Source: Steroidobacteraceae bacterium (lineage in GTDB: Bacteria; Pseudomonadota; Gammaproteobacteria; Steroidobacterales; Steroidobacteraceae). Taken from it: DNA of 64,000 nt. Within the stretch, counting starts at the first letter, position 1, and each line of letters opens with the position of its first letter. The position numbers were made by a program, and so were the translations under genes. Below the pieces are notes generated by a model. It searched no databases and was not told the DNA's origin. It was given only the letters and a program-made list of their open reading frames with translations. The DNA is taken from positions 1 to 64,000 of the forward strand of contig JANWJS010000044.1 in the NCBI GenBank assembly GCA_025451845.1. The letters are read 5' to 3'. Shown one piece after another: positions 6-56,209 of the stretch.

Positions 6-354
6 TGGTGCCCGGGGCCGGACTCGAACCGGCATGGGGTTGCCCCCGAGGGATTTTCTTACCAACTACAGCTTTCGCTGCTGCGAGGTCGCCGATCAAA
101 CGACCGCGACCGGTCCCGCATTTGTGGTCTGGACTTTACCTTCACCCTGCCGCGCGCCCTCACGAGTCGCGCAGTTTAGGCGGGGGCCGTCAAGTCTCTA
201 CACTTTCCGCGACTCATCGCGGCTTAGCTCGGTATTGCAGCCACCCTGACGTGCTGCTGTTCCACCGAATTTGACCCCATTCACGCCGGGCGTTTCCGCG
301 CCGGGTGCTCAAAGCTCTCAAGTCCCTTGCGTCTACCGATTTCGCCACCCGGGC
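6..354 (-). tRNA. tRNA-Leu(UAA), interrupted by a group I intron
   Basis: Read on the minus strand, positions 354-320 give the 5' half of a leucine tRNA: acceptor strand GCCCGGG, D arm and the first half of the anticodon arm, ending C-U-U. Positions 57-9 give the other half: AAAA, the closing anticodon stem UCCCU, a long variable arm with GGGG/CCCC pairing, T arm GGTTCGAGTCC, acceptor CCCGGGC and discriminator A. CCA is encoded at 8-6. Joining the halves gives a seven-base anticodon loop CUUAAAA with anticodon UAA. The acceptor strands pair 7/7, so both exons belong to one gene. The long variable arm fits a class II tRNA such as Leu. The mature tRNA needs removal of the 262 bases between U34 and A35. 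Confidence 0.95.
58..319 (-). ncRNA. Group I self-splicing intron in the tRNA-Leu(UAA) anticodon loop
   Basis: The 262-base insert lies between U34 and A35 of the UAA anticodon. The last exon base is U and the last intron base is G (omega-G, position 58), as expected for group I splicing. Core elements are visible on the minus strand: an R-like segment containing GACUU (196-192) and an S-like segment containing AAGUC (136-132), which pair perfectly as P7, and a hairpin CAGC-GAAA-GCUG (80-69) just before the 3' splice site. GAG soon after the 5' splice site can pair with exon CUU through a terminal G-U to form P1. Sequence blocks resemble the cyanobacterial tRNA-Leu(UAA) intron as I remember it. 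There is no long ORF on the intron strand, so no homing endonuclease. Subgroup IC3 is inferred. Confidence 0.93.
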
Positions 355-527: not shown

Positions 528-1160
528 ATGTCCGATTTCTGCCTCAAGGGGGAGAACGTGCACCTCTGGCGCGGCGACCATCATGTGCTGCGCGGGGTAC
601 GGTTTCAGGTCGAGGGAGGGGAATGCCTGCAGCTCACGGGGGCCAATGGGGCGGGCAAGACCACGCTCCTGCGCACGGCCTGCGGCCTGGCCTACCCGGA
701 GGGAGGGGAGATCACCTGGCGCGGGGAGAATATCCGCAAGGACCTGCATGCTTTCCACGCACAGCTGGCCTACCTGGGGCATGAGCCGCCACTGAAGGCG
801 GAGCTGACTGCGCGCGAGAACCTTCGCTATTGGATCGGTACGCGACGTCGACTCCAACCGCAGGAGCTGGACGGCGCGCTGGAGCGCGTCGGCGCGGACC
901 AGTGGGCGGACCGTCCGGTACGAACTCTTTCCGCGGGACAGAAACGCCGGGCCGCTCTCGCGGGACTCACGCTGATGCGTGTCCCTCTTTGGCTGCTGGA
1001 CGAGCCGACCACGAATCTCGATGCCGAGGGGCAGAAGCTGGTCGGCGCGCTGATAGATGAGCACTTGCAGGCAGGAGGAGTCGCGCTCGCGGCGGTGCAC
1101 CACGGGCTCGCCATGTCAACGGCCAGTGGACTCAAGCGGATGGAATTGACAGTTGGCTAA
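528..1160 (+). CDS. ccmA: Haem exporter ATP-binding protein CcmA
   Basis: 210-residue ABC ATPase of the CcmABCD complex, which drives release of haem-loaded CcmE at the inner membrane during cytochrome c maturation. Walker A GANGAGKTT is at residues 38-46, the ABC signature LSAGQ at 134-138 and Walker B LWLLDEP at 154-160. The length matches family members of about 205-215 residues. It is the first gene of a nine-gene ccm operon, and ccmB follows in the same orientation. The name rests on the ATPase motifs together with operon position; out of context it could be read as a generic ABC ATPase. Confidence 0.96.
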   Translation: MSDFCLKGENVHLWRGDHHVLRGVRFQVEGGECLQLTGANGAGKTTLLRTACGLAYPEGGEITWRGENIRKDLHAFHAQLAYLGHEPPLKAELTARENLRYWIGTRRRLQPQELDGALERVGADQWADRPVRTLSAGQKRRAALAGLTLMRVPLWLLDEPTTNLDAEGQKLVGALIDEHLQAGGVALAAVHHGLAMSTASGLKRMELTVG

Positions 1161-6981: not shown

Positions 6982-7185
6982 CCGATCCAACGCAAGTTGG
7001 AGGAACCGGCTGACCCTCGCGCGGCAGCAACCGGGAGCGGGGATGCGGCCGGCATGCCTCTTGCTGGGTCCTAGCTGCTCGCTGGCCGGGATTTTCTCGA
7101 TGAAGTCCGTGGGCCGCACATCGATTGCTGCCGCTGTGGGTGCCCGCGAGCCCCAACGAACCCAGCTTGTGTGAGGAGAGAAGTG

Positions 7186-7575
7186 ATGGCTCAGGTATCA
7201 GGTCACGACGGACGCAGCTCGGAGAGCCGCACGTCAAATCGAGGATTCGCCTCGATGAATGCGGAGCGGCAGCGCCAGATCGCCAGTATGGGCGGCAAGG
7301 CAGTGCCCGACGAGAAGCGTAGTTTTTCGCAAAATCGGCGTCTAGCCGCGGAAGCCGGCCGCAAGGGCGGGCAGAGCGTGCCCGGCGCAAAACGCAGTTT
7401 CTCGCAAAATCGCGAGCTTGCGGCCACGGCCGGCCGCAAGGGCGGGCAGAGCGTCCCGGACGAGAAGCGCAGCTTCTCGCAGAATCCGGAGCTTGCCGCT
7501 GAAGCGGGCCGCAAAGGCGGACAAGCCAGCCACGGAGGCGGCGGAGGCGACACGCACCGCGACACGAGGTCGTAG
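7186..7575 (+). CDS. KGG-repeat stress-type protein
   Basis: 129-residue hydrophilic, glycine- and lysine-rich protein. ATG at 7186 follows a strong GAGGAGAG ribosome site; an in-frame ATG fifteen bases earlier has no such site. The core is a 25-residue unit ending in KRSFSQN and carrying AGRKGGQ, present about three and a half times. KGG proteins of this type (GsiB and conidiation-10-like) are linked to desiccation and general stress in other bacteria; that role is inferred here. The tail is Gly/His-rich. It stands alone between the ccm operon and the thi riboswitch. Confidence 0.85.
   Translation: MAQVSGHDGRSSESRTSNRGFASMNAERQRQIASMGGKAVPDEKRSFSQNRRLAAEAGRKGGQSVPGAKRSFSQNRELAATAGRKGGQSVPDEKRSFSQNPELAAEAGRKGGQASHGGGGGDTHRDTRS
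7336..7524 (+). repeat. 75-base tandem coding repeat
   Basis: Units at 7336-7410 and 7411-7485 plus a partial copy at 7486-7524 encode the 25-residue KGG modules. A diverged 23-residue version precedes them. The copies differ at several bases, including third positions, so the duplication is not recent. Confidence 0.85.
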
Positions 7576-53785: not shown

Positions 53786-56209
53786 TCAGAAATCCTGACT
53801 GAACTCGACTCCAACCGTGCGTGGCTGAGTCGGCGTAACGTAGAACGCCTGCGGAACCCCGGCGATGGCCGTGGAGCCGCAAGTCACCACCGCGCAGGAA
53901 GTCTGTGCGTTGACCTCGCCATGACTATTGAAGATGTTTTTGGCAAAGACCTCGACCCGCCGGGAGCCATCGCTCATGCCTGCCGACAGGCTCTCGGTCG
54001 CAAAGCCCCCTAGCCTATAGTAGGGGCCAGCGTCTCGAATGTCCGGGACCCTGAGGTAGACTGGAATCGATCCGCGGTAGGCCGCCGTCGCCTCGACGTG
54101 CGCAATCCAATCGTTCAACCCCGGAACGGGAAAGGAATAGCGCGCCGTGATGTCGCCCTTGAATCTTGGCACATAGACGAGCGGTGTGCCTTTGGTCACC
54201 TGGATTGGCAGACCCGAGCAATCCTGGATCGGCGAGTATGACGCCGAACTCACGCCGCAGAAATCCCTCGAGATTCGCGAATCGTTGAAGGCGACCGCGC
54301 CAGTCAGCTGCAAGCGCTCAGTTGCCAGCCAGTGTACGCTCGTCTCTACACCGGTAACTGCCGCAGACGGAGCGTTCTGATAAATGGAAGTGCCGTTCGG
54401 GCCTTCGAAGGTGAATTGGAAGTCGTCCCAAGTCTCCCGGTACACCGCCGCATTCCAGATCAGGCGATCCTCGAGCCATTCAGTCTTCCAGCCGATCTCG
54501 TAACTGCTCAAGCTGTCGGCTTTATAGGGGCCAATTCCCGGATTGCGGTTGGTGCCTCCCGGCCGATAGCCCGTTGAGTACGTCGCATAGAGGAGCCGGC
54601 CATGAGCCAATTTGTAGCTCAGGGTGAACTTGTGTGTTTCTCCGGAGTCGCGTGTGTCTTTATCGAACGTCGCGCATGGCGCTCCATCGAACGGACCGCT
54701 GGTCACGCACAACGATCCCGGGGCGCCCGGGGGAGCGGTGCGGGAGCCATAGTACCCTTCGAAATTATTGCGATCCTGGTACAAGCGAACGCCGGCAAGG
54801 AATGAGAGCTTGCTCGTGATGTCGTATGTCGCCTCACCGAAGGCAGCAAGATCCCGCTCCACGCGAGATTGATCGATCAGGAAAATGGTGTTTGGGAAAC
54901 CCACGACAGAATTGGCCGTCGCATAGTCATTGACCGTGTACGGCCAGAGAGAGTCCGCCGTCTGTGTTTGCTGAAAGAGCCCGGTAACGAATCGCAGCCG
55001 GTCGGTGCTCGGACTGGCGACGCGCAGCTCGTTGCTGTAATCGGAGTACTTGTCAGTCGCATAGACTTCCTGATGCGGATCAGAAATCACGTCTCCGAGA
55101 TCGTCCGTCCACGCCGCACCCGATCCGTACAGGTTGTCGTAGAAGACTGAGTAGTCCATATAGTCCGTGCTGGAGTGCGTCTGGCGGTTGAGATATGCGC
55201 CGGCGTATGTAAGATCGAAGCGGCCCACTTTCCCCTGAATCGTCAGCGCCGCCTGCCACCAGCGGTCGCGCTGATAATCCGGTCCGAAGCGCTCGACATC
55301 CAAGTAGCCGACCGCAGGCTCGTACGCATTTATTCCGGTGGCTCGAGTTTCCTGGGTGATGACGCTCGGCGTCACCGTCCAGCGGTCACTGAGGTCGACT
55401 TGCAAAGCCGCGCGACCGCCGTACTGATGTGAGCCATTGAACGCCGAGTGCACGAAATTCGAGTTATTGACGGTCGCTCCAGACGTTGCGAACGTGCGCG
55501 TCGCGGAAACGTTGTCAATGAAGCCAGGATCATATTCATCGAAGGCGACCAGGCGGATGGCTGCACGGTCACCAACGGGAACGTTCACAAACCCCTGATC
55601 CACATATCCATTGCCGCCGTGGCCGACCGAGTCCCCCTGCAGGTCTACACTGCCGTATAGGCGGTGCAATTCCGGTTTATTGGTGATGATACGCAGGGTG
55701 CCGGCCTCGGAGCTTGCGCCATACAGAGTGCCCTGTGGGCCCGGCAGCACCTCGACCCGCGAGACGTCATACATGTGCACATCGAGCGTGCCACTGATGC
55801 TCGTAACCGGCTGCTCATCGAGATACGTCGCGACCAGGGGCAGGGATCCACCAGCGCTCGTGCTGCCGTCAGCCACCCCGCGCATGTAGATCAGGTCGCC
55901 GGCATTGCCGCCGTTCAGCCCCTGATGACTCTGGAAGCTCATGCTCGGCACATAATTCGCGTAGTCGCGGAAATTATTGACTATCAGCTCCGTCAGTTGC
56001 TTCGACGGCAGCGCCTGGATGCTCATCGGCACCGCCTGCGCGTTCTCCGGGCGCTTTTCCGCAGTCACGATGACGGTCGCCAGCGTTGCGGGGGAGGGTG
56101 GTTGGACATTGGCCAACTCCTGCGCCACGGCCGCACGTACCGAGACGAGCACGGAAGTTGTCATCAGCGCCGCAGGCAGTGCCCCGCTCATGATTCTCGA
56201 TACTCTCAT
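53786..56209 (-). CDS. TonB-dependent receptor
   Basis: 807 residues: signal peptide (about 1-30), TonB box near ATVIVTAEKRPENAQ, plug (LIVNNFRDYANYVPSMSFQS to LYGASSEAGTLRIITNKPEL) and a barrel ending in FSQDF. There is no STN domain, so it does not signal through FecR. It resembles the large class of receptors in sphingomonads and steroid-degraders that import organic substrates. Divergent from the MFS gene and convergent with the GntR gene. Confidence 0.93.
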   Translation of the reverse strand: MRVSRIMSGALPAALMTTSVLVSVRAAVAQELANVQPPSPATLATVIVTAEKRPENAQAVPMSIQALPSKQLTELIVNNFRDYANYVPSMSFQSHQGLNGGNAGDLIYMRGVADGSTSAGGSLPLVATYLDEQPVTSISGTLDVHMYDVSRVEVLPGPQGTLYGASSEAGTLRIITNKPELHRLYGSVDLQGDSVGHGGNGYVDQGFVNVPVGDRAAIRLVAFDEYDPGFIDNVSATRTFATSGATVNNSNFVHSAFNGSHQYGGRAALQVDLSDRWTVTPSVITQETRATGINAYEPAVGYLDVERFGPDYQRDRWWQAALTIQGKVGRFDLTYAGAYLNRQTHSSTDYMDYSVFYDNLYGSGAAWTDDLGDVISDPHQEVYATDKYSDYSNELRVASPSTDRLRFVTGLFQQTQTADSLWPYTVNDYATANSVVGFPNTIFLIDQSRVERDLAAFGEATYDITSKLSFLAGVRLYQDRNNFEGYYGSRTAPPGAPGSLCVTSGPFDGAPCATFDKDTRDSGETHKFTLSYKLAHGRLLYATYSTGYRPGGTNRNPGIGPYKADSLSSYEIGWKTEWLEDRLIWNAAVYRETWDDFQFTFEGPNGTSIYQNAPSAAVTGVETSVHWLATERLQLTGAVAFNDSRISRDFCGVSSASYSPIQDCSGLPIQVTKGTPLVYVPRFKGDITARYSFPVPGLNDWIAHVEATAAYRGSIPVYLRVPDIRDAGPYYRLGGFATESLSAGMSDGSRRVEVFAKNIFNSHGEVNAQTSCAVVTCGSTAIAGVPQAFYVTPTQPRTVGVEFSQDF

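Follow-up and report, generated by a model that had tools for sequence, protein, structure and literature searches.

A group I intron in the tRNA-Leu(UAA) gene of a Steroidobacteraceae bacterium, with relatives in tRNA-Leu(CAA) genes and in phages

Introduction

The group IC3 intron in tRNA-Leu(UAA) of cyanobacteria and plastids (trnL intron) is one of several described introns close to the one reported here; an intron in tRNA-Leu(UAA) is mentioned in PMC4476775. Putative group I introns interrupt tRNA-Leu-TAA in two gammaproteobacteria, Ca. Maribeggiatoa (BOGUAY) and Ca. Thiomargarita nelsonii, according to a passage of PMC4853749. Crystal structures of the Azoarcus tRNA-Ile group I intron are cited in a 2014 review (PMC3984707), where a title in the reference list gives its subtype as IC3; reference 105 of the same list is a paper on the endonuclease of the cyanobacterial tRNA-fMet intron.

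The window analysed here is a 64,000-nucleotide stretch of the genome of a Steroidobacteraceae bacterium and carries at its start an interrupted tRNA-Leu(UAA) gene. Its intron follows U34, which we take to be also the site of the cyanobacterial and plastid tRNA-Leu(UAA) intron. Compared by description only, the two are alike in the gene, the group I core and the absence of an endonuclease gene, but the host of the window intron is a gammaproteobacterium. The report of a gammaproteobacterial tRNA intron to which the initial annotation of this DNA alluded is probably that of Vepritskiy et al. (2002). Ca. Maribeggiatoa and Ca. Thiomargarita nelsonii, likewise compared by description only, share with our host both the class and an interrupted tRNA-Leu-TAA; they also have an interrupted tRNA-Arg-TCT, as stated in part of PMC4853749, whereas the companion introns of the window genome lie in Leu(CAA) and Ile2(CAU)-like genes. 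The Azoarcus intron, again by description only, is alike in being a group IC3 intron of a proteobacterial tRNA, and the Ile2(CAU)-like companion (L033) recalls its host gene; it occupies a different tRNA and a different position from the window intron. The window intron is a new member of this known kind; less ordinary are the companion intron with a C-G pair at its splice site, the empty sites in members of the genus and the phage-borne relatives, some of which bear endonuclease genes.

Results

ARAGORN found zero tRNAs in the window in a default run and, with introns allowed, a tRNA-Leu(taa) with a 262-nt intron at c[6,354]. The gene (6..354, minus strand; 349 bp with the intron, CCA encoded) begins with a 35-nt 5′ exon (320..354, minus) that terminates in ...GGGACUU, the last base being U34. 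It is followed by a 262-nt group I intron of the IC3 type (58..319, minus), which ends in G and in which no endonuclease gene was found, such genes being present in relatives, and by a 52-nt 3′ exon including CCA (6..57, minus; AAAAUCCC...ACCA) with a long variable arm of the leucine type. When the exons were joined, ARAGORN called tRNA-Leu(taa), whereas the unspliced control gave no call, in agreement with the initial annotation, which had held that the exons form one leucine tRNA only after removal of 262 bases. The features it had listed for the insert (a preceding U, a terminal G, a GACUU/AAGUC P7 and a GAAA-capped hairpin) are likewise borne out. Divergent from the tRNA gene lies a ccmA-like ABC ATPase gene (528..1160, plus); the name was assigned by inspecting its ORF together with the run of cytochrome c maturation genes that follows.

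For structural analysis, intron-bearing genes of the order, 15 of the Leu(UAA) and 15 of the Leu(CAA) type, were aligned (alignment A1), and pairing was counted in P1, P2, P3, P4, P6a, P7 and the P9 hairpin; P5 and P8 were excluded because the two sets align poorly there. Across the 30 introns, bases are able to pair as proposed in 94.5% of the 1182 cells counted, as against 30–46% when the strands were slid by 1–3 columns; 0 of 500 shuffles reached the observed pairing values, and changes on both sides occur in 20 of the 40 pairs. The pseudoknotted P3/P7 core is paired in 100% of cells (both-side changes in 3/6 pairs of P3 and 3/5 of P7), P4 in 93.9% and P6a in 94.4%; the second pair of P2 is absent in half of its cells (15/30). 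P3 reads GGGGUC/GGCCCC in the Leu(UAA) set and CCCGUC/GGCGGG in the Leu(CAA) set, and P7 reads GACUU/AAGUC and GAGCA/UGCUC, respectively. These compensations between the sets may represent a single old event counted repeatedly; covariation support within each set is given by P2, P6a and the P9 hairpin.

All elements of the window intron lie on the minus strand. The 5′ strand of P1, CUU|GAG across the exon/intron boundary (317..322; A1 columns 33–38), faces the internal guide sequence UUUGAG (308..313; A1 columns 48–53), with U34 opposite G. P3 is formed by GGGGUC (273..278) and GGCCCC (183..188), P4 by UUCGGU (264..269) and ACCGAG (228..233), and P7 by GACUU (192..196) and AAGUC (132..136), all of them included in the covariation count on A1. 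The first G of P7 is the putative guanosine-site G; its pair (A1 columns 200–265) is GC in 30/30 introns and was equated with G264–C311 of Tetrahymena by our own alignment. The P6a hairpin, CCGCGAUGAGUCGCGG (207..222), marks the region that holds an HNH gene insertion in a congener (G005), and the P9-region hairpin CAGC-GAAA-GCUG (69..80) precedes the 3′ splice site. A terminal G is present in all 30 introns of A1 and a U34·G pair at the 5′ splice site in all 15 of the Leu(UAA) type; the L2 loop is GAAA in 29/30 and the P9 hairpin loop GNRA in 29/30. The P5 region is short in all 30 rows and lacks the P5abc extension, and from this and the GNRA loops in L2 and L9 the predicted subtype is IC3. 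Exon joining and core covariation together uphold the proposal that a group I intron lies between U34 and A35 of tRNA-Leu(UAA).

The lack of a group I covariance match, which the initial annotation had named as a refutation, did occur with one model: Rfam RF00028 gave no match to the window intron up to E 10. The miss is explained by the low sensitivity of the model for these introns, as its cut-off was reached by 0/14 intron loci of this kind and by 3/17 in a second set; the Leu(CAA) companion of the same genome (L034) scored 22.8 of 50 bits. Three relatives found via our core model R1 or a core motif (L258, L225 and L278) do score above the cut-off and tie the intron family to group I. A match to RF00028 is a database-model criterion and not a defining feature of group I introns, and a passage of PMC6125680 notes that a single alignment such as RF00028 seemed unlikely to capture their diversity. 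Single-sequence folding, which has no means of modelling the P3/P7 pseudoknot, contributed little: the thermodynamic fold of the window intron is only weakly better than shuffles (z −2.1; 2/100 shuffles equally good).

Apart from RF00028, a sub-threshold match to the LOOT motif (RF03000; 20.4 of 46.4 bits) runs from 182 to 49 on the minus strand of the window, over the part from P8 to the 3′ exon, and another such match occurs in L056:1678-1798 (31.1 bits). The LOOT consensus CCUAAaC...GCAUGGcaAAA resembles J3/8-P8-J8/7 of these introns; 17 further loci gave no LOOT match at E 0.1.

The host genome contains a second interrupted leucine tRNA gene (L034, C29:13057-13380), the only tRNA-Leu(CAA) gene found in it, which ARAGORN calls tRNA-Leu(caa) after splicing and whose 237-nt intron occupies the same position as that of the window. 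The last base of the 5′ exon is U in 19/19 Leu(UAA) genes parsed in relatives, to which the window adds one, and C in 29/29 Leu(CAA) genes of relatives, to which L034 adds one; with the Leu(CAA) introns of two loci from other families (L216 and L219), all 32 parsed copies have C. On the intron side, the pairing partner of this base is G in either set (A1 pair 35–51: UG 15, CG 15). As the anticodon fixes C34, the Leu(CAA) intron appears to tolerate C-G in place of U·G at its 5′ splice site.

This intron type seems rare outside the genus. A Leu(CAA)-intron DNA pattern with one mismatch allowed, which is blind to copies with another start, matched 3/369 genomes of the class, our own included, and 2/369 after inspection. 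The match that was discarded, L366 (G851:C1), is by inspection a tRNA-Leu(UAA) gene, and its intron, as judged by eye, apparently follows base 33 and so sits one position closer to the 5′ end than in the other genes. Among the titles listed by searches of an open library, to which most subscription journals do not belong, none concerned a Leu(CAA) group I intron or phage tRNA introns.

The host assembly is a draft of 58 contigs and 4.4 Mb, 97% complete. Its 40 intact tRNA matches include leucine anticodons CAG, UAG and GAG only, with no second Leu(UAA) gene among them, and the Leu(UAA) and Leu(CAA) genes were seen only in the interrupted form. In 29 long ORFs of the window, putative genes picked mechanically by length and GC, UUA accounts for 10 and UUG for 147 (157 together) of 1402 leucine codons, and 28 of the 29 use UUA or UUG. 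With no uninterrupted UAA or CAA gene seen, UUR decoding should depend on intron removal, every UUR-reading leucine tRNA seen in the host requiring splicing, if the assembly is representative. On the same proviso, the initial suggestion that the sole UAA-reading tRNA may depend on self-splicing stands. Elsewhere in the window, positions 7171–7575 of the plus strand encode a small protein of tandem repeats around SFSQN...AGRKGGQ, which resembles stress-induced KGG-repeat proteins.

A third intron of the genome (L033, C20:196257-196540) scores above the RF00028 cut-off and interrupts an Ile2(CAU)-like tRNA gene; 1 of 18 exon joins tried yields a CAU anticodon, and ARAGORN labels the product Met. 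Its core is distant from those of the leucine introns (29.5 bits with R1).

To assess how common such introns are, genomes were searched with R1 at E 0.001, which gave matches in 204/396 genomes of the order and 41/398 of the phylum, the host included in both. The 33 loci taken from these searches (L211–L243) were, L214 excepted, the top-scoring ones from beyond the genus. Joining the exons gave Leu(UAA) for 22 of them and Leu(CAA) for 2, and 8 were unassigned by the leucine test; ARAGORN with introns reported tRNA-Arg for at least five of these 8, and Leu(taa) for L212, which had been miscalled as a stop tRNA. Leu(UAA) accounts for 19/29 loci from the phylum search alone. Twelve of 80 loci around ccmF were also scored with R1, and L109 alone matched. 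Searches of plasmid and phage collections with the window gene returned exon or partial matches only, none spanning 80%. The window intron is thus not rare, contrary to what the initial annotation had implied, and is of a kind already known: interrupted tRNA-Leu-TAA is in print for Beggiatoaceae, in the passage of PMC4853749 cited above.

Within the genus, the Leu(UAA) site is filled in 21 of 37 genomes (our own included), exactly empty in 5, and in 11 neither state was seen, several of these being incomplete MAGs; in every genome the search scored a dozen candidates. The Leu(CAA) site is filled in 34 of 58 genomes, empty in 14 and, among the matches listed, in neither state in 10. The exact empty sites argue that the intron has been gained or lost among members of the genus. 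In the empty Leu(UAA) genes L067–L069, the exon join reads GGGACUUAAAAUCCC; these and L072 adjoin the ccmA-like gene, as do most filled ones. The exons of the window gene match those of the uninterrupted L067 exactly; they also match L068 and L069 exactly except for the CCA, which those two genes lack. Empty Leu(CAA) genes are 97–100% identical to the interrupted gene over their first 36 bases, which fits an intron entering, or leaving, a resident gene.

At two Leu(CAA) loci, L376 (G073:C69) and L377 (G005:C200), 3′ halves of the tRNA gene are repeated about 5–11 kb apart. The former includes an integrase gene and JetD/Wadjet-like genes, the latter a TOTE-primase-like gene, and both are probably islands inserted at tRNA-Leu(CAA). 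In L376, a complete Leu(CAA) gene with its intron is preceded, at a distance of 249 bp, by the 5′ half of a copy that has none.

For phylogenetic analysis, 100 loci were run against R1 (52 of 80 viral ones, with near-duplicates and weak ones omitted, 2 phage records and 46 bacterial). Six of the 102 rows of a first FastTree tree (L297, L255, L065, L364, L274 and L282b) were then dropped, either because an endonuclease gene interrupts them or because their branches are long. In the final IQ-TREE tree of 96 introns and 123 columns, 28 of the 93 inner branches are open. The Leu(UAA) introns of the genus form one clade (99/95), which groups with introns from three further families of the order (100/99); this assemblage is nested in a larger clade together with phage introns (96/97). 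Those of the Leu(CAA) type cluster with introns that interrupt either Leu(UAA) or Leu(CAA) genes in other families of the class (100/98). A recent within-genome copy of the Leu(UAA) intron as the source of the Leu(CAA) intron was rejected, as the two fall in different clades and an AU test, framed after the first tree had been viewed, argues against one clade (p 0.0023). The tree thus indicates that the two introns of the genome descended separately.

A 19-base core motif retrieved at least 120 stretches from IMG/VR, of which 80 (L244–L323) were analysed. R1 matches 77 of them. In 38 the joined exons give tRNA-Leu(taa), and the splice-site base is U in every one of these; the other 42 did not resolve as leucine. 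The introns of the 38 fall into about 21 groups, with 30 different sequences among them. Seven of ten proteins from seven of the viral contigs have PHROGs matches, including DNA polymerase, DnaB, rIIA and tail fibre; those of the L300 and L261 contigs (one protein each) had none. Leu(taa) introns also occur in phage records, namely Agrobacterium phage Atu_ph07 (L364) and the uncultured-phage assemblies LR756501 (L365) and LR756511 (L375). According to the 2014 review (PMC3984707), every phage intron observed up to then lay in a gene for a protein, although phage tRNA genes are numerous.

HNH genes are located inside the 688–700 nt introns of L255, L281, L297 (three of the 38 viral-contig Leu(UAA) introns) and L375, on the basis of Pfam for L255 and L297. 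In the genus of the window, the Leu(UAA) intron of G005 (L065, G005:C65:48621-49410) is 703 nt long and contains, on the opposite strand, an HNH homologue broken by one stop. Its identity to the L297 protein is 46%, and 59% for the C-terminal piece; overall, the two pieces are 34–59% identical to HNH genes carried by phage introns that occupy this tRNA site. A search for the HNH gene found it in 1/99 relatives and in two viral contigs, the query's own and a second with an identical copy. A tRNA intron carrying its own homing endonuclease is also represented by the cyanobacterial tRNA-fMet intron, whose enzyme is presumably I-Ssp6803I; here the HNH genes are in phage tRNA-Leu(UAA) introns, with the broken copy in G005. 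The decayed homologue in a genus member points to homing, with phages as possible vectors.

Discussion

Taken together, the data make it very probable that the window gene is the cell's tRNA-Leu(UAA), with a minimal, endonuclease-free, self-splicing IC3 group I intron between U34 and A35 that belongs to a mobile-looking lineage. By analogy with the established group I mechanism, P1, formed with exon CUU and intron GAG, would set the 5′ splice site at the U·G pair; a guanosine bound at P7 would attack after U34, and the freed U34 would then attack after the last G of the intron and join A35, yielding the mature tRNA. The two transesterifications, protein-free splicing and the need for it in the living cell are all inferred from that mechanism.

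We weighed this interpretation against three others that concern the gene itself. The window gene begins at base 6 of contig C44, the extreme contig start, as an assembly chimera might, but 20 other members of the genus carry the same intron at the same site with at most 89% identity across the whole gene, and only a few of these copies likewise lie at contig ends (that of G027 does; that of G006 is at contig base 56,007, and many others are deep within contigs), so the chance of an artefact is practically negligible. In archaea and eukaryotes, tRNA introns are known that proteins splice out. Removal by a tRNA endonuclease and ligase of that type, rather than by group I chemistry, would suit the position in the anticodon loop (for archaea, such introns are mentioned in part of PMC6125680), yet it is highly improbable in a gammaproteobacterium and for an insert with a group I core, covarying P3 and P7, a U before it and a G at its end. 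Slightly less remote, though still very unlikely, is a decaying, non-splicing relic in a silent tRNA gene, with UUR codons read through an unassembled second gene. The 58-contig, 97%-complete draft leaves room for such a gene and some sister species lack the intron; however, the exons are identical to those of an intact gene, the core pairs are maintained across 30 sequences, the arrangement is retained in 20 other members of the genus, and no other Leu(UAA) gene was seen in the genome.

How the intron reached the gene is less clear-cut. The lineage looks mobile, given HNH-bearing copies in phage genes, a decayed HNH gene in a genus member, endonuclease-free copies and empty sites, and such HNH-bearing, endonuclease-free and empty states are those expected in the life cycle of a homing intron. 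Under one scenario, which we put forward tentatively and at distinctly less than even odds, phages serve as reservoir and vehicle: by homing, an HNH-bearing IC3 intron invades tRNA-Leu genes at the anticodon, passes between phage and chromosome and later sheds the endonuclease. One of its branches would have come to reside in tRNA-Leu(CAA) and would splice there with a natural C-G, so that all UUR decoding here might run on two ribozymes. Old vertical inheritance within the order with repeated loss, phages being recipients and not donors, comes close to an even chance. The single genus clade, its grouping with three other families and the same flanking ccmA at filled and empty loci speak for it; the phage introns in the enclosing clade (on 123 columns, which leave direction open), the resemblance of the G005 HNH pieces to phage-intron genes at the same tRNA site and the patchy distribution of the intron speak against it.

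Interrupted leucine tRNA genes are widespread in Pseudomonadota and are missed by ARAGORN in default mode and often by the Rfam group I model, so that genomes can appear tRNA-deficient. The U·G pair at the 5′ splice site of group I introns is highly conserved, and the occurrence in one genome of a Leu(UAA)/Leu(CAA) pair, with U·G in one and C-G in the other, offers a natural test of this conservation.

With phage-borne copies at hand, some with an endonuclease, the movement of tRNA introns becomes directly testable. Three further phage loci deserve mention. In Gordonia phage Daredevil, whose host is an actinobacterium, a tRNA-Lys(ttt)-like gene (L373, 41197-42670) has an intron of the same kind, as found by ARAGORN with introns. 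In one viral contig (L306:13038-13774), R1 matches twice at a spacing of about 600 bp, which may reflect a pair of adjacent genes that each contain an intron. In Pelagibacter phage HTVC120P, a similarity to the intron core (L374, 19653-19807) lies between two ORFs annotated as capsid protein, which is perhaps a protein-gene host for this intron family.
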